From: a virus
Strand: one strand, 5' to 3'
DNA length: 25,337 bases
IMG/VR virus record: IMGVR_UViG_3300004448_000038
Location: 1-25,337 of that record
Shown: positions 7,239 through 25,337 of the stretch, in pieces
How the letters are laid out: the number at the start of each line of letters is the position of its first letter
Numbering within the stretch: position 1 is the first letter of the stretch
Position numbers and translations under genes: made by a program
Notes under the pieces: model-generated
What the model was told of the DNA's origin: nothing
What the model saw: only the letters and a program-made list of their open reading frames with translations
Databases searched by the model: none

Positions 7239-7571
7239 ATGGCTTACAATGGAAAACCCTTTTTTAAAATCCCACGTCCACTCTTGTTGGCTGGTGGTTT
7301 AGACGTTCAAACAATCTCAACAGACATCTCATTGGTGGATAAAGATTCTTTGTTCCAAGTGATTGATGGTGGTGGCGCTGATCACAATGTCACACTCCCA
7401 CCGGAAAAAGATGGACGTGTATATTTTATCAAAAATGCTGGAACTACCAACAATTTATTGATCAAAGATGACGCCGCTGGTGGTGTGATCACATTGAGTC
7501 CCAATGAGGTTGTATTGTTAGGATCTTCAGATTCTTTGTGGTATGTTCTTTTGAATGTAAACAACCTATAA
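7239..7571 (+). CDS. Beta-rich head or decoration protein
   Basis: A 110-aa protein behind a perfect GGAGG site (tagGAGGctctcATG). The chain is strand-rich, with PFFKIPRPLLLAG at the N-terminus and a repeating Gly/Asn/Asp turn pattern (VIDGGGADHNVTLPPEKDGRVY, then IKNAGTTNNLLIKDD). This 'D-x-x-VTLP-x-x-x-GR-x-Y-x-IKN' pattern is common in beta-helical or beta-sandwich tips of phage fibres and small decoration proteins, where it reads as a strand-turn-strand unit. It resembles the minus-strand 106-aa protein in size and general character. A role on the virion surface is therefore likely but not proven. Confidence 0.72.
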   Translation: MAYNGKPFFKIPRPLLLAGGLDVQTISTDISLVDKDSLFQVIDGGGADHNVTLPPEKDGRVYFIKNAGTTNNLLIKDDAAGGVITLSPNEVVLLGSSDSLWYVLLNVNNL

Positions 7572-7582
7572 TCTTGAGATAA

Positions 7583-8341
7583 ATGATGTCCACACAACGA
7601 TTGTATAGTCCTAGAATACGTATCCATGAGGTCCTTGAGAGGTCTCGTGGGTGTACTGTTGACCTCCCAATATATCGGGATGGTGCTTTGGTATCGCCAA
7701 CAAGTGCATATTTTAGACTAGAAAATCCAAACGGTGTGGATGTCATATCTCGAACAGCGGTGTCCATTGTGGCCAATGTGGCCACCTATACAATCGCACC
7801 TAGTGAACTACCCACCACAACCCTTTTGGGTGATGGATATGTCCAATGGTGGGAGTTGACGATTGATGGTGTGGTCCACACATTCAAAAAACCAACCGCC
7901 ATCGCGTTGAGTGCTTTGTATCCTGTCATCAGTGATTTGGATTTGGAGGCGGAGTATTCTGATCTCGCTTCCATCCGTCCATCATCATTGGGATCATCAT
8001 ATCAAACGTATATTGATGAGGCATGGGTCCAACTCATCCAACGTGTGAGAGATCAGGGTAACATTGAGTATTTGATCATGAGTCCTCAATCATTGAGATC
8101 ATGTCATAAAAATCTCACCTTTTATCTCATATTCAAGGATATGGACTCCAGTGGATTGGGTGAGGGTCGTTATCTTGATTTGGCCAAAACCCATCGAAAG
8201 GAGATGGAGTTTGACTTCAAGCGGTTGAAGTTTACTTATGATCTCAATCAAGATGGACGAGCTGATAACAAGAACAAAAGACGAGCCAATTTGAGTGTGA
8301 TATACACCAGCGCTCCTCCTATTTGGACTTGGAGACGATAG
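7583..8341 (+). CDS. Putative head-tail connector protein
   Basis: A 252-aa protein; two adjacent ATGs (7583, 7586) are possible and the upstream site (TTGAG) is weak, so it may depend on coupling to the gene before. Residues about 1-110 look like a beta domain (YSPRIRIHEVLERSRGCTV, GDGYVQWWELTIDGVVHTF). Residues about 125-230 are helical, with YIDEAWVQLIQRVRDQGN, and resemble head-tail adaptor helices. The C-terminus carries DLNQDGRADNKNKRRA, a calcium-loop-like DxNxDGxxD segment that may bind a metal ion. Place, between capsid genes and the tail terminator, is what suggests a connector. The family is not recognised with certainty. Confidence 0.65.
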   Translation: MMSTQRLYSPRIRIHEVLERSRGCTVDLPIYRDGALVSPTSAYFRLENPNGVDVISRTAVSIVANVATYTIAPSELPTTTLLGDGYVQWWELTIDGVVHTFKKPTAIALSALYPVISDLDLEAEYSDLASIRPSSLGSSYQTYIDEAWVQLIQRVRDQGNIEYLIMSPQSLRSCHKNLTFYLIFKDMDSSGLGEGRYLDLAKTHRKEMEFDFKRLKFTYDLNQDGRADNKNKRRANLSVIYTSAPPIWTWRR

Positions 8342-20260: not shown

Positions 20261-20292
20261 AATCGGTAGCTACCAACAAAATCAATCAAACC

Positions 20293-20330
20293 GGAGAGGC
20301 TCCAAAGGGTCTCTCCACTTCAACTGGAGA
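20293..20330 (+). promoter_or_regulatory. Alternative hairpins over the ribosome site of the 35-aa peptide gene
   Basis: Hairpin one is a 10-bp stem (20293-20302 with 20307-20316, two G-U pairs, loop CAAA). Hairpin two pairs TCTCCA (20312-20317) with TGGAGA (20325-20330), loop CTTCAAC, and covers the GGAG ribosome site. They share bases 20312-20316, so forming the first frees the ribosome site. No T-tract follows, so hairpin one is not a standard terminator. Confidence 0.45.
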
Positions 20331-20336
20331 AACAAC

Positions 20337-20444
20337 ATGAAACAATCAATCAAAAATAACATCATAGGGACACTCATTGTGGGTGTCGTTATCATGGCCG
20401 GTCCTCTTTTCATGGCCATCATTTGTCACGTGCTGGAGGTGTAA
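20337..20444 (+). CDS. Small membrane peptide in the early operon
   Basis: A 35-aa peptide with GGAG seven bases upstream of its ATG. Residues about 9-30 form one hydrophobic helix (NIIGTLIVGVVIMAGPLFMAIIC) after a basic start (MKQSIKNN). The next gene starts one base after its stop. Early phage membrane peptides can act in superinfection exclusion or in host membrane modification; nothing here decides between them. The ribosome site can be hidden in an alternative hairpin (20312-20330). It is similar in size to the late membrane peptide at 10305, but they share no clear sequence. Confidence 0.6.
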   Translation: MKQSIKNNIIGTLIVGVVIMAGPLFMAIICHVLEV

Positions 20445-20445
20445 A

Positions 20446-20688
20446 ATGACAACCTATGGACAACGAATCAAAAAATACATGGATGAGATTGGATGGACTG
20501 TGGTGGATCTCAGTCGTGAGACATTGATCCATTTTGTGGAGTTGGAGGCCATCATCAATCATGGTCAACTCCCAACCACCAATCAGCTCATGATCATCGT
20601 CAACAAAATCAATCTCAAGTATCCAAAATCACGTCATTGGGAAATTTTCCATGACATCACATTTCACACAATCCTCAAAGGTGAGTAA
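20446..20688 (+). CDS. Small HTH protein, XRE/Cro-like
   Basis: An 80-aa protein; the ATG at 20446 has GGAGGTG upstream, ending inside the preceding peptide gene. Residues about 4-55 resemble the five-helix XRE fold: YGQRIKKYMDEIGWTVVDLSRET as helices one and two, then the recognition helix HFVELEAIINHGQLPTTNQL and a closing helix LMIIVNKIN. Such proteins act as Cro- or CI-like repressors or as early regulators. The C-terminal tail (SRHWEIFHDITFHTILKGE) is short. The likely operator is the inverted repeat at the early promoter, but this is inference. Confidence 0.65.
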   Translation: MTTYGQRIKKYMDEIGWTVVDLSRETLIHFVELEAIINHGQLPTTNQLMIIVNKINLKYPKSRHWEIFHDITFHTILKGE

Positions 20689-20689
20689 C

Positions 20690-21181
20690 ATGACAACACA
20701 ATCAACCAAAATGACACCCAACACCAGATCATATATCAAACAATATGGACGCGTCTCACATCGCAACCAAACACCACAGCTCGAACAAATCACCCATGAT
20801 GGTGAAGTCATTGGAGAGGTGTCAATCATTTGGGAGTGTGATTGGGTTTTCAGTGCCAAAGTGTTCTCAAAGGATGGAGCGTTCAAAATCAATCTCCAGC
20901 GCTATGAGGACGCTGTGAGGTGGATATGGATCCGTACTCTGGAAGTCAACCGCCACAAGTCTTTTGGAGCCTATTTGACGTACTTTTTGAGTGAGGTCAA
21001 TATGTCCAAAACCTCATTGGGTGTCAATCTCAATGTGTCACGTCAAACAATATATGATTGGCTCAATGATGTGAGTCTCCCAAATACACCAACATATCTC
21101 AAGTTTGCTCGATTGGTGGCCAAATGGACTCGCTGTGATTTAGCCACAACATTGGTGGACATATCGGACTCAATCCATTAA
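20690..21181 (+). CDS. DNA-binding protein with C-terminal HTH
   Basis: A 163-aa protein behind AAAGGTGAG, one base after the previous stop. The N-terminal half (about 1-80) is beta-rich with ITHDGEVIGEVSIIWECDWVF and does not match a family I know. Residues 92-148 form an HTH domain: SFGAYLTYFLSEVNMSK, then SLGVNLNVSRQTIYDWLND with the turn around NVSRQT, then LKFARLVAKW. This is the XRE-type arrangement. A regulator with its own sensory or dimerisation half is the likely role. A hairpin with A-rich upstream sequence follows at 21193-21219. Confidence 0.68.
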   Translation: MTTQSTKMTPNTRSYIKQYGRVSHRNQTPQLEQITHDGEVIGEVSIIWECDWVFSAKVFSKDGAFKINLQRYEDAVRWIWIRTLEVNRHKSFGAYLTYFLSEVNMSKTSLGVNLNVSRQTIYDWLNDVSLPNTPTYLKFARLVAKWTRCDLATTLVDISDSIH

Positions 21182-21192
21182 CAAAAAAGAAA

Positions 21193-21219
21193 TGGGAGAA
21201 CGCTGGCCAGCCTCTCCCA
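21193..21219. repeat. Hairpin between HTH gene and primase gene
   Basis: TGGGAGA (21193-21199) pairs with TCTCCCA (21213-21219); inside, GCTGGCCAGC can pair with itself. Plus-strand sequence behind it is CTTCAAACAAC, with no T-tract, and CAAAAAAGAAA lies before it, so the minus strand would see a T-rich tail. The CTCTCC(C)ACTTCAA end is shared with the hairpin at 20293-20316. Confidence 0.5.
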
Positions 21220-21257
21220 CTTCAAACAACATAACAATCAAAAACATTGGAGTAACA

Positions 21258-22142
21258 ATGTTCGAGTACAGTATAACACTATTCGACAACATCCACCAAC
21301 GAAGTGGACGATCAATCACCATGGATGTGGACAGAATATGTCAAGGTCTATCCACACCAATCCACACGTCCATTGAGGACAAATCACGACTCCCATTGTG
21401 GAGTCCCACCACCTTTGATGGAACTAGATCAACCAAAAACGCTCAATCCATCTCAATGTTGGTGTACGACATGGATGATGGAGACAGCTCGTTTGATGTG
21501 TGGTGTCTATTTGCTCAACGAGGGTGGACAACCATAGCCCACACCAGCGCCTCACACTCTCCCAACCATCACAAGTATCGTGTGATCATCCCATTGGCCT
21601 CTCCACTTCCAAAAAGTGATTGGGACCGAGTTTGGAGGGCCTCCTTTGAGTTGTGGATGGATGTGGTTGGGATTGGAGTCCCAGACACCAAAGCCATCAA
21701 AGATTTGGCTCGTGTTTACTTCCGTTATGGATGGACTCGTGATTCCAAATTGGAGATGATGGATGGGTCCAAAGTGTGGCCACAATCTCATCCATGCTCT
21801 CCAGCCCAATATCATAGGAGTGGATATTGGATTGGACGTCCATTGGAGTTGAAGTATGACCACATCCAACTCCCAAAGCCCAAACCGCGTCCAAAGTTTG
21901 ACCGGACAAAATCTCAAACGTTGGATAGTGCTATGATGGATCCACAGTTGAGAGAGCGTGTTGGGATCAACGCTGGTGGACGTATCGTTGGAGATTATAT
22001 CAAACACATCCAATGTCCCTCATGTGGTCAAAAATCGGTATTTTATTCCATTGATCCATCAATGGGAAACTCAACAAAATGGCCATCATGTAACCGGATC
22101 AATAAATGTGGTTGGTGGGGTAAGCTGGAGACATTGTCATGA
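21258..22142 (+). CDS. Replication primase of the AEP/RepB-like type with zinc-ribbon end
   Basis: A 294-aa protein; the ATG at 21258 has GGAG five bases before it. An Asp-rich active-site strand is seen as MLVYDMDDGD (Asp71, Asp73, Asp74). THTSASHSPNHHKYRVIIPLASPL follows in parts (AHTSASH at 95-100, KYRVIIPL at 107-113), with His and Arg in the places used by archaeo-eukaryotic primases. A further Asp lies at 143. The C-terminal zinc ribbon has CPSC (253-256) plus Cys278 and Cys284. Such proteins make RNA or DNA primers at the phage origin. The next genes are a methyltransferase, an HTH protein and a helicase, a normal replication module. Confidence 0.72.
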   Translation: MFEYSITLFDNIHQRSGRSITMDVDRICQGLSTPIHTSIEDKSRLPLWSPTTFDGTRSTKNAQSISMLVYDMDDGDSSFDVWCLFAQRGWTTIAHTSASHSPNHHKYRVIIPLASPLPKSDWDRVWRASFELWMDVVGIGVPDTKAIKDLARVYFRYGWTRDSKLEMMDGSKVWPQSHPCSPAQYHRSGYWIGRPLELKYDHIQLPKPKPRPKFDRTKSQTLDSAMMDPQLRERVGINAGGRIVGDYIKHIQCPSCGQKSVFYSIDPSMGNSTKWPSCNRINKCGWWGKLETLS

Positions 22143-22777
22143 GTACATATCAAATGGATAAAATCACACTTCACCATCAAGATTGTGTGGAGGCCATGAG
22201 AGAGATGGAGACCAACACCTTTGATTTGGCCATAGTAGATCCACCATATCAATTGGGTACTCCCAGCGCTTACAGTGGAGCCGGTAAATTGGCCAAAAGA
22301 GTCCTCAACCAATCGGACAAAATCTCCAAATGGGATGTGGCTCCCACAGTGGAGTATTTTGAGGAGTTGATGAGAGTCTCCAAAAATCAAATCATATGGG
22401 GTGGGAATTATTTTGATCTACCTCCCACACGTTGTGTCATTGCATGGGATAAGTGCCAACCATGGACCAACTTTTCTCAGTGGGAGATGGCGTGGACATC
22501 CTATTCCAAACCGGCCGCGCTGTTCAAGTTTGACAACCGGACTGGAGGAAAAATCCATCCAACTCAAAAACCTGTCAGATTATATGAATGGATTTTGGAA
22601 CGATTTGCAACCAAAGGAGACATGATTTTGGATACTCATTTTGGAAGTGGTTCCAATGGTATAGCGTGTCATAACATGGGATATGAGTTGACATCATTTG
22701 AGATTGATGGTGATTATGTCTCCAGAGCGGTTGATCGTATCCGGAGACATCAACTTCAACTCTCATTCAAATGGTGA
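22139..22777 (+). CDS. DNA methyltransferase (adenine-N6 or cytosine-N4 type)
   Basis: A 212-aa enzyme, read by an ATGA overlap with the primase gene. The catalytic motif IV is DPPY (34-37). Motif I, which binds S-adenosylmethionine, is FGSGSNG (168-174), and HPTQKP (140-145) precedes it. The order IV then I places it in the beta class. No restriction endonuclease gene is near, so it is probably an orphan methyltransferase that protects the phage genome against host restriction or marks origin DNA. The target sequence cannot be read from the protein. Confidence 0.87.
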   Translation: MSTYQMDKITLHHQDCVEAMREMETNTFDLAIVDPPYQLGTPSAYSGAGKLAKRVLNQSDKISKWDVAPTVEYFEELMRVSKNQIIWGGNYFDLPPTRCVIAWDKCQPWTNFSQWEMAWTSYSKPAALFKFDNRTGGKIHPTQKPVRLYEWILERFATKGDMILDTHFGSGSNGIACHNMGYELTSFEIDGDYVSRAVDRIRRHQLQLSFKW

Positions 22778-22781
22778 AACA

Positions 22782-23090
22782 ATGTTAACCAATATAAGTA
22801 TCCCAAAAGGAGCCGGCCAATTTGGAGAGTGGGTGATCAAACTCATGGCCAAACAAGACATGACCAGAGATGATGTGGCCAATCTCATGGAAGTGACACC
22901 GGCCACCGTTAGACGTTGGATGGTACAACCTCGAAAGATGAAGATTGAGACATTGATGGAGATGGCCAAAATCATTGTGGGTGATGATGATGTGATGGTG
23001 GACTCATTCATCTCTCAAGCGATGACGAAAATAATGAACAACAAAAACACGACAATCAAACAACACAAAAACCGGAGTATCAAATCATGA
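22782..23090 (+). CDS. Small HTH protein
   Basis: A 102-aa protein; the start at 22782 lies four bases after the methyltransferase stop and has only GGTG as a ribosome site, so it may be coupled. Residues 14-66 form an HTH domain: FGEWVIKLMAKQDMTRDDVANLM as helices one and two, then TPATVRRWMVQP as recognition helix, and KMKIETLMEMAKII as a closing helix. The C-terminal part is a basic Asn/Lys-rich tail (MNNKNTTIKQHKNRSIKS). It may regulate the replication genes or bind origin DNA. It is the third HTH protein of this operon. Confidence 0.72.
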   Translation: MLTNISIPKGAGQFGEWVIKLMAKQDMTRDDVANLMEVTPATVRRWMVQPRKMKIETLMEMAKIIVGDDDVMVDSFISQAMTKIMNNKNTTIKQHKNRSIKS

Positions 23091-24403
23091 CAACAGACAA
23101 ACAAAGAGAGGCCAGAGAGAGACTATTGGAGATGGCCAAAACATTGGGGATCCGATTGGTGGAGGACGTTGAGTCCACAGTTGATCCAACCATCCCAATG
23201 GGAGCCGATCCAGCAACGTGGGAGCGCCTCGACAAACCAAAAGCCCAATACGATGAACATGGACACCTCAAAAAACCTGTCATTCCCAAAACGAGTCGAA
23301 TCAATACCAATCTCATATTGGAGACCGATCCAAAATACTCATCATTGGTGTTTTGGGAGCATGCTGATCAAATCCTTTGGAGGGGGAAAATGGTCAGTGA
23401 CGCCATCATTGAGGACATCGCGTTGGATATGGAGGTCCGTTACAGATACCGAGTATCCAACAAACTGTTGGAGGGTGCGGTGTTGAGAGTGGCCAATCAA
23501 CGGATCCACACACCAATCAAAGATTGGTTGGGGTCATTGGACCCATGGGATGGGACTCCGAGGATTGAGAATCTGGCCGAAAATGTTTTGATGTGTGAGA
23601 CAACGGATGAGTATAGACCATTGATCCAAAGGATGACAGCTTTGATGTGGATCTCTTTTGTGGCTCGAATCTTTGAGGCTGGATGTCACGTTCACACACT
23701 TCCAATCTTTGTCGGTCCAAAAGGAGTGGGAAAATCCATGACGATGGAGATCATGTGTGAGCAATACTTCACACGAGCTGATCTTCCGATTGGTAAAAAG
23801 GACGCACTGGAGAAAATCCATCAAGCGGGGATGTGGGTTTGGGAATTGGCCGAACTCAAAGACCTACAAGGAAAATCCGCCGATGTGGCCAAACAATTTC
23901 TCTCCACCAGTGAGGATTTGTATCGTCCATCCTATGGCAAACTTCCAGTCAAGCGAAAACGGAGGACGTGTTTTGTTGGTACAACAAACAATTATCATTT
24001 CATGGATGATGGTCCAGAGCGTCGGTTTTGGGTGTTCAAAATCCTCAAAAAGATCAACATCCAGTATCTCCAAACTCATAGAGAACAGATTTGGAGTGAG
24101 GCGGTCCACTTCTACAAACAAGGGATCTCGTGGTGGTTGGATCCGGAGTTTGAGGACATGTTGAAAGATTACCAAACCGCGTTTTTGGTGGATGATCCTT
24201 GGGCTTTTAAGGTACACAAAATCATGATCCAACGTGATGAGGGGACCATTGACACATCCACTGGAGACATCATTGAGGCTTTGGAATTGCCAATGCACAT
24301 CTCCCACACTGGGAACGCCAAACGGATAGCCGCCATCATGACTCAACTGGGATACGAGTCCAAACGACGTGGATCAAGACGAGTTTGGAAAATGGCAAAA
24401 TAG
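23087..24403 (+). CDS. VapE-family replicative helicase/ATPase
   Basis: A 438-aa protein, starting at an ATGA overlap. The Walker A motif GPKGVGKS is at residues 210-217, and an acidic motif VWELAEL near 248 serves as Walker B. FVGTTNNYHF near 297 fits the sensor-1 region, with GPERRFWVF behind it as the arginine-finger area. This is the layout of virulence-associated E (VapE) proteins, which in phages act as superfamily-3-like helicases at the origin, often with a primase in the same operon. The N-terminal ~150 residues match the usual VapE N-terminal region, including DWLGSLDPWDGTPRIENL near 145. DnaA-box-like repeats start at the stop codon. Confidence 0.82.
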   Translation: MTTDKQREARERLLEMAKTLGIRLVEDVESTVDPTIPMGADPATWERLDKPKAQYDEHGHLKKPVIPKTSRINTNLILETDPKYSSLVFWEHADQILWRGKMVSDAIIEDIALDMEVRYRYRVSNKLLEGAVLRVANQRIHTPIKDWLGSLDPWDGTPRIENLAENVLMCETTDEYRPLIQRMTALMWISFVARIFEAGCHVHTLPIFVGPKGVGKSMTMEIMCEQYFTRADLPIGKKDALEKIHQAGMWVWELAELKDLQGKSADVAKQFLSTSEDLYRPSYGKLPVKRKRRTCFVGTTNNYHFMDDGPERRFWVFKILKKINIQYLQTHREQIWSEAVHFYKQGISWWLDPEFEDMLKDYQTAFLVDDPWAFKVHKIMIQRDEGTIDTSTGDIIEALELPMHISHTGNAKRIAAIMTQLGYESKRRGSRRVWKMAK

Positions 24404-24424
24404 TTATCCACAGACTTATCAACA
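24404..24424. repeat. DnaA-box pair, start of cluster 1
   Basis: TTATCCACA at 24404-24412 and the variant TTATCAACA at 24416-24424, three bases apart (GAC). The first begins at the base after the helicase stop codon. Same strand and same 12-base step as the boxes at 24460-24504. Confidence 0.85.
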
Positions 24425-24457
24425 GGTCTCCAACTTCGATGAGTTGGGGGCCTTTTT
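24425..24457 (+). terminator. Rho-independent terminator of the early/replication operon
   Basis: An 11-bp stem (GGTCTCCAACT with AGTTGGGGGCC, two G-U pairs), loop TCGATG, then TTTTT. It lies 21 bases after the helicase stop codon and inside the DnaA-box cluster, between its first two and last five boxes. It is the strongest terminator in the window. Confidence 0.9.
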
Positions 24458-24459
24458 AC

Positions 24460-24515
24460 TTATCCACAAAGTTATCCACAGACTTATCCACAAAGTTATC
24501 CACAGGTGTTGATAA
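24460..24515. repeat. DnaA-box array, main part of cluster 1
   Basis: Four exact TTATCCACA boxes at 24460, 24472, 24484 and 24496, spaced exactly 12 bases apart with AAG, GAC, AAG between them. After two bases an inverted TTATCAACA follows (TGTTGATAA at 24507-24515). TTATCCACA is the highest-affinity box of E. coli oriC and is widely conserved. Five boxes in 56 bases is far beyond chance and points to binding by host DnaA or a phage protein of similar specificity. Confidence 0.9.
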
Positions 24516-24533
24516 GTATGATACATTCAAATC

Positions 24534-24881
24534 ATGAGTGACAAATCAATTACACAGCTCGTGAGAATGATGTTGAGAGGTATTGAGACCGCGGTACCAA
24601 TAGATCCTATTCAAGCGGCTCAACATTTTGAGACAACCATCAAAGAGATGGGGTTGTTTTATGCTCATCATGATGGTGTTGGATATGTGTTGGATGATGA
24701 TGATGAGGTGATGATGGTCCACTTCAAGGATGATGGGGTTGATTTTGATGAACACCATGAACATCCACAAACACTCAAGGTCATCCAATGTGTCCTCAAC
24801 AGTCTCACCCATATGGAAAATCAATACTTATTTGGTTCAGATGAGACCGATGATGATAGTGATGATTTTGATTGGGTTTGA
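24534..24881 (+). CDS. Very acidic small protein between DnaA-box clusters
   Basis: A 115-aa protein. No ribosome site precedes its ATG, and a possible -10 (TATGAT, 24517-24522) would place the transcript start only a few bases before it, so a leaderless mRNA is possible. The N-terminal part (about 1-50) is helical (ITQLVRMMLRG, IQAAQHFETTIKEMG). The second half has acidic runs: VLDDDDEVMMVHF, DDGVDFDEHHEH, and a C-terminus DETDDDSDDFDWV. Such charge is seen in DNA-mimic and single-strand-binding tails; the DDFDWV end resembles the acidic, hydrophobic tip by which SSB-type proteins bind partners. I do not recognise the family. Its place inside the origin suggests a replication role. Confidence 0.72.
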   Translation: MSDKSITQLVRMMLRGIETAVPIDPIQAAQHFETTIKEMGLFYAHHDGVGYVLDDDDEVMMVHFKDDGVDFDEHHEHPQTLKVIQCVLNSLTHMENQYLFGSDETDDDSDDFDWV

Positions 24882-24883
24882 AG

Positions 24884-24915
24884 TTATCCACAGACTTATC
24901 CACAATTGTTGATAA
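24884..24915. repeat. DnaA-box cluster 2, downstream of the acidic gene
   Basis: Exact TTATCCACA at 24884 and 24896, with GAC between, followed after two bases by inverted TTATCAACA (TGTTGATAA at 24907-24915). The end copies the end of cluster 1: box, two bases, inverted variant. It starts three bases after the acidic gene stops. Confidence 0.88.
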
Positions 24916-24974: not shown

Positions 24975-25040
24975 AATCACACCAGTTTCACGCCAATTTC
25001 ACACCAGTTTCACACCAGTTTCACACTAGTTTCACACCAA
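24975..25040. repeat. Tandem 11-bp iterons (TTTCACACCAG), left array
   Basis: Six units in direct repeat with an exact 11-base period: a partial first unit (AATCACACCAG, 24975), TTTCACGCCAA (24986), TTTCACACCAG (24997 and 25008), TTTCACACTAG (25019) and TTTCACACCAA (25030). Eleven bases is about one helical turn, so bound proteins would line up on one face. This is the classic form of an iteron array for a replication initiator. Confidence 0.88.
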
Positions 25041-25234
25041 CAAAAATCTCTACAATGTCCACAATGTCGAACCTATAGAGAAAATACACTCTAAAAACAC
25101 ACTTTTTTTAGTCTAAACTTTTATATACCCTTTGAGATATGGGTCTATGAGTCCAAGACAACATTTTTGATCAAATGTGGAGTCATATTGGTGAAGTACT
25201 CCACCAGTGTCGATGGGATACCATATTTGGTGAC

Positions 25235-25263
25235 GTGTGAAACACGTGTGAAAACAGTGTGAA
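25235..25263. repeat. Inverted 11-bp iterons (GTGTGAAA), right array
   Basis: GTGTGAAA at 25235 and 25246 and GTGTGAA at 25257, exactly 11 bases apart. The core is the reverse complement of the TTTCACAC core of the left array. The two arrays face each other across about 195 bases that include the AT-rich stretch. Confidence 0.8.
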
Positions 25264-25305
25264 GTTCTACGACCACAATGGATGGGATTGTGTTATGTTG
25301 TGGCT

Positions 25306-25337
25306 ATGAAACGACACCACACATTTGGTGATTGGAT
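25306..25337 (+). CDS. Possible start of a further gene, cut by window end
   Basis: An ATG at 25306 opens a frame (MKRHHTFGDW) that runs off the window. Only ten codons are visible and no good ribosome site is seen (TGTTGTGG), so this is a weak call. If real, it would be the first gene to the right of the inverted iterons and could be a replication initiator. Confidence 0.2.
   Translation, partial: MKRHHTFGDW

Follow-up and report, generated by a model that had tools for sequence, protein, structure and literature searches.

The window, by which we mean the whole stretch of DNA that was analysed, comprises 25,337 bp and forms a virus record in IMG/VR. It encodes a portal, a major head protein and a tape measure protein, as well as a terminase large subunit detected by tblastn. 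The terminase search returned weak relatives only (near 25% identity) and no host was indicated. Because the element has head, tail and terminase genes of its own, we ruled out that it is a SaPI (Staphylococcus pathogenicity island) or another phage satellite. Towards its right end, the window contains the following features:

21192-22142, plus strand: primase-like protein of 316 aa with a C-terminal zinc ribbon (PHROG 9765 "DNA primase", E 8e-9; the zinc-ribbon match is weak)
23087-24403, plus strand: VapE-like SF3 helicase of 438 aa (Pfam PF05272, E 7.8e-56), the proposed initiator and iteron reader
24194-24394, plus strand: predicted C-terminal winged helix of the helicase (residues about 370-436), the proposed iteron-binding domain
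24404-24515, no strand assigned: first DnaA-box cluster, with TTATCCACA or TTATCAACA at 24404, 24416, 24460, 24472, 24484 and 24496 and an inverted box at 24507
24424-24453, plus strand: terminator-like hairpin, from a consensus scan only, downstream of the helicase gene and within the first DnaA-box cluster
24534-24881, plus strand: acidic ORF of 115 aa between the helicase gene and the iterons, exchangeable
24884-24915, no strand assigned: second DnaA-box cluster, with boxes at 24884 and 24896 and an inverted box at 24907
24975-25040, plus strand: left iteron array, six 11-bp units with the consensus TTTCACAC(CA/GT)(G/A)
25041-25234, no strand assigned: spacer of about 197 bp, 64% AT, the presumed melting zone
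25235-25264, minus strand: right iteron array, three units of the left-array iteron with cores at 25235, 25246 and 25257
25306-25337, plus strand: start of a small HTH-like protein, cut by the window end (complete in the related contig L006 at 7441-7689, 82 aa)

The primase-like protein is a probable partner of the helicase, and a DNA methylase (N6/N4) gene at 22139-22777 sits between the two genes. A stretch of about 65 bp that precedes early genes has a single copy in the window (20280-20450) but three in L006 (1435-1496, 1750-1815 and 2521-2695), which suggests that it is a promoter or regulatory element repeated upstream of these genes.

A preliminary description of this DNA had reported two facing 11-bp arrays across an AT-rich segment, and we confirmed both, with six units on the left, three on the right and a period of 11 bp. 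The left units read, in order, AATCACACCAG, TTTCACGCCAA, TTTCACACCAG, TTTCACACCAG, TTTCACACTAG and TTTCACACCAA, in exact 11-bp register. On the right, the cores also follow one another in 11-bp steps; those at 25235 and 25246 are GTGTGAAA, whereas the third, at 25257, had been given as a further copy of this core and is actually GTGTGAAG, which differs by one base. The two arrays represent one iteron on opposite strands, and their 32-nt arms pair at 81%. Thus, iterons in opposite orientation surround an AT-rich stretch at 24975-25264. The AT richness of the spacer is genuine but moderate relative to the window (about 55% AT), with a peak of 76% and the best conservation near 25080-25139 (AAAACACACTTTTTTTAGTCTAAACTTTTATATACC).

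We compared the arrays with several chance expectations. One 8-mer occurs exactly four times at an 11-bp period in the window, compared to a maximum of two in 60 simulated 25-kb sequences. The facing-array score at the site was 4.24, whereas the highest score among 98 other window segments was 3.46 and the maximum in 40 dinucleotide shuffles was 3.17. A blastn search of the region against phage records yielded a single 47-bp microvirus match, which we judged to be due to chance.

To find relatives, viral contigs were scanned for the pattern, and nine IMG/VR contigs with both arrays were recovered, of which L006 is the closest to the window and eight are more distant. Single-array pattern matches (L008, L009, L012, L015 and L016) had neither a VapE match nor an opposed array and were regarded as unrelated. 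None of the nine relatives deviates from six in-register units on the left, whereas the right array has between two and four. Counting the window, ten sequences can be compared for their core-to-core distance (last left core to first right core): it amounts to 205 bp in all but one, where it is 206 bp. Spacer identity to the window nevertheless drops to 53%, with indels in the alignment that cancel out. Since this distance is fixed although the spacer diverges, we interpret the region as a structure of fixed geometry rather than as drifting repeats. The possibility, raised earlier, that the arrays vary freely among relatives was not borne out, as both are kept in each of the nine relatives that span the region.

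Six of the relative contigs (L006, L013, L018, L011, L019 and L007) share an end point about 2.15 kb past the right array, and two contigs of about 30 kb start and end with a common short sequence (GTGCTGAC or TGCCGAC) before a small terminase gene. These observations were made at L006:9477-9537, at the ends of L013, L018, L011, L019 and L007, and at L061:1-60. The shared ends and the short terminal sequence look like a cos site and fixed genome ends.

According to the preliminary description, no initiator was visible in the window. This is incorrect: a VapE homologue lies upstream of the arrays, and helicases of the self-loading SaPI type are known to read facing iterons (PMC7581432, PMC9894130). 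The match of this protein to PDB chain 7pds ("similar to D. nodosus vapE"), which we take to represent the structure of SaPI Rep published by Qiao et al. (2022), has an E value of 2e-23 by phmmer and of 1.3e-29 by profile. Together with the Pfam assignment and a Walker A motif (GPKGVGKS) that is invariant among relatives, this identifies the protein as a VapE-family AAA+/SF3 helicase and as a candidate initiator. The helicase is 80-97% identical among relatives, with 97% identity to the window in L006 and 80-84% in the more distant relatives containing the gene (the sequence of L019 stops short of it). Querying genome contigs with an alignment of the helicases returned no relative.

A model of the whole helicase had low confidence (mean pLDDT 38), and the C-terminal domain was therefore modelled alone. 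The fold predicted for its last 70 residues has the order H-H-H-strand-strand with a local pLDDT of about 77-90, and the winged-helix core, with the motif HISHTGNAKRIA...GYESKRRG..RVW, is invariant in 10 relatives. The best PDB structural matches of this domain are generic winged-helix DNA-binding proteins (Z up to 6.8, none strong), and 7pds is not among the 50 structural matches listed for it, an absence that carries no weight.

A Rep gene beyond the window, where the preliminary description had advised looking for one, was not found in the next gene, at the right end of L006 or at the left end of L061. Similarly, we detected no RepA/RepE/Rep_3-type initiator in the replication region, the gene after the origin or the genome ends (L006, L061), and no other initiator family in the window or at the L006 right end or the L061 left end. 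The two arrays and their 11-bp period also recall a centromere-like partition site such as parC of plasmid R1, in which two sets of 11-bp direct repeats are bound by ParR. However, the arrays described here are inverted and adjoin a replication module, and no ParA, ParM, TubZ or ParR match was found in the scanned proteins (those of the window, the L006 right end and the L061 terminase small subunit), so that a partition function is extremely improbable. Given that the partner genes were not found in the regions scanned, we reject both the P1-type and the partition-site readings.

Several other proteins had been put forward as readers of the iterons. Two of the HTH proteins are weaker candidates because they diverge while the repeats stay unchanged; in the more distant relatives, identity is about 35% for the protein at 22698-23090 and about 42-51% for that at 20651-21181. 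The acidic protein is also a weaker candidate, as it has no match in L006, L013 and L018, all of which keep both arrays. The gene just beyond the window, also proposed, does not encode a Rep; its product, the small HTH-like protein, is the best rival to the helicase. It is 75-87% identical and in the same position in all nine relatives, has no Pfam or PHROG match, and its gene starts about 41 bp after the end of the right array. This conserved neighbor could be an alternative reader of the same repeats. The arrays would then be operators through which this or another phage HTH protein regulates its own gene or operates a switch, with an origin function perhaps existing alongside. Six plus three facing units held 205 bp apart at fixed spacing would be unusual for an operator, however, and the region contains no promoter above chance. 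Moreover, the other HTH proteins fall to 35-50% identity beside unchanged repeats, and distant VapE phages with facing arrays have no annotated HTH gene next to them. We thus consider the operator explanation unlikely.

Between the helicase stop and the arrays, which start about 0.57 kb further downstream, lie one ORF and the DnaA boxes. The boxes are spaced 12 bp apart, and both clusters, which flank the acidic ORF, end in an inverted box. Seven exact copies of TTATCCACA are present, all within 24404-24904, whereas simulated sequences contained 0.7 per 25 kb on average. The region 24404-24883 is an exchangeable cassette bordered by the DnaA-box clusters; it holds the acidic ORF in the window, an unrelated 66-aa ORF in L006 and other content in L013 and L018.

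The number of exact boxes, their regular spacing and the presence of clusters in most relatives could indicate that host DnaA is the true initiator, acting at the TTATCCACA clusters, and that the site formed by the iterons has a regulatory function (handcuffing or incompatibility). Against this, both the number and the position of the clusters vary. The first cluster is absent from L006 and L011, and the second is kept in L006 but absent from L011, L013 and L018; in L013 and L018, about 440 bp separate the sole cluster from the first exact core downstream of it. L011 keeps both arrays, yet no DnaA box, even with one mismatch allowed, occurs in the 700 bp upstream of them, and its 30,388-bp record has no tandem DnaA boxes. 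A DnaA-driven origin is therefore very unlikely. As the boxes are not due to chance but are inconstant among relatives, we regard them as an optional addition.

We then examined 22 distant VapE phages and satellites. In each, a facing-repeat score was computed for the 400 bp that follow the stop codon of the helicase gene and was compared with the scores of 52-79 control segments taken from that locus. Nine of the 22 loci outscore every control segment, where about 0.3 would be expected. These are Synechococcus phage S-LBS1, Enterococcus AE4_2, Lactobacillus LfeSau, Staphylococcus QT1, the Streptococcus satellite Javan292 and Paenibacillus GIW2016 and Pd_22F, along with a Christensenellales phage and a Gardnerella phage that pass narrowly and with lopsided counts. 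In Pseudomonas U5, facing TGTCCCAC arrays occur one small ORF further downstream, and this locus passes when the real gap is used. The other 12 loci showed nothing clear in the facing-array test.

The iterons differ between phages (TGCCTAACC, TGTCCCACC, TGTTACACC and ACTGCAACA, compared to TTTCACACC in the window), and in most distant loci the strand ending in AC(A/C)C is on top on the helicase side, as judged by eye. The common neighbor of the arrays is the helicase gene. No annotated HTH gene adjoins them, and the next annotated gene encodes a nuclease, a resolvase or a hypothetical protein. The sharing of the helicase beside arrays of differing sequence is a correlation, and it is the strongest argument that the helicase, rather than another protein, is the reader. 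Based on sequence comparisons, the protein that reads the iterons is thus most likely the phage's own VapE helicase.

The assignment of 24975-25264 as an origin that combines iterons with a melting zone and DnaA boxes, as first proposed in the preliminary description, is well supported by these sequence features, although the family to which it had been referred (P1-type or theta-plasmid origins) is wrong. We consider it probable that the site is the core replication origin, at which VapE binds the iterons and forms two rings across the spacer, with DnaA as an optional helper. This origin would belong to a tailed phage of roughly 30 kb. VapE subunits would bind the 11-bp iterons via their C-terminal winged helices, and two helicase rings (hexamers) would self-load. 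Because the arrays are inverted copies, the rings would point at one another across the AT-rich spacer, which they would melt before departing in opposite directions. The separate phage primase (21192-22142) would supply primers and start synthesis, and host DnaA bound to the upstream TTATCCACA clusters may assist.

Some findings count against the VapE reading. The 12 distant VapE phages without a clear signal fail the facing-array test on both counts, the arrays of the window are not directly downstream of the helicase gene, and the match to 7pds spans helicase residues 69-366, ending before the winged helix. In addition, the GC skew of the window has no clear switch at the arrays. A more elaborate role for the DnaA boxes is conceivable, if doubtful. 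The origin could be doubly gated, by DnaA at the 12-bp-spaced boxes and by VapE at the facing iterons, so that firing would be tied to host DnaA status; alternatively, the boxes could withdraw DnaA from the host chromosome, and the phage origin would rely on its own helicase.

With VapE as the proposed reader, the orphan origin of these uncultured phages acquires a specific candidate protein and a precise target, namely a 290-bp site with a fixed inter-array distance of 205 bp and a 438-aa helicase. The survey of distant loci suggests that SaPI-type, SV40-like facing arrays after a VapE gene may be widespread in the ordinary phages that infect Cyanobacteria, Pseudomonas and Gram-positive bacteria. 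If so, these phages, each with its own iteron, would form a ready-made collection in which to study site selection by self-loading helicases.

Among known systems, the iteron theta plasmids and P1-type origins share iterons, an AT-rich zone and DnaA boxes with the window. However, their initiator (RepA/RepE) is a non-helicase Rep, and the arrays of the window, unlike theirs, face each other. In SCCmec, the self-loading helicase Cch2 binds direct repeats downstream of its own gene via its C-terminal domain (PMC7581432). This system differs from the window in that its iterons, located downstream of cch2, are no more than three short direct repeats (AAGTG), and its helicase, unlike VapE, is of the D5/Primase_Cterm branch. 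Phages with a fused primase-VapE protein (S-LBS1, U5, LfeSau, GIW2016, Pd_22F and Javan292) resemble the window in their facing short repeats and AT-rich center; in their candidate origins the arrays are directly after the gene, with another iteron sequence and a period of about 8-11 bp.

The closest parallels are with SaPIs, whose self-loading helicases are VapE- or D5-like. The C-terminal domain of SaPI Rep helicases is described as recognizing an iteron origin directly downstream of the helicase gene (PMC7581432), and the repeats of this origin as opposed, directing two head-to-head hexamers as in SV40 (PMC9894130). The SaPI Rep origin and the window have in common a homologous VapE helicase (7pds) with a C-terminal DNA-binding domain (predicted in the window), a separate primase and, downstream of the helicase gene, opposed repeats on either side of an AT-rich stretch. 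The window differs from SaPIs in being a complete tailed phage rather than a satellite, in the 0.57 kb between gene and arrays, and in its 11-bp period, fixed 205-bp core-to-core distance and added DnaA-box clusters. Overall, judged by testable features, the best reading of the site is that it belongs with the origins of VapE/SaPI-Rep-type self-loading helicases.
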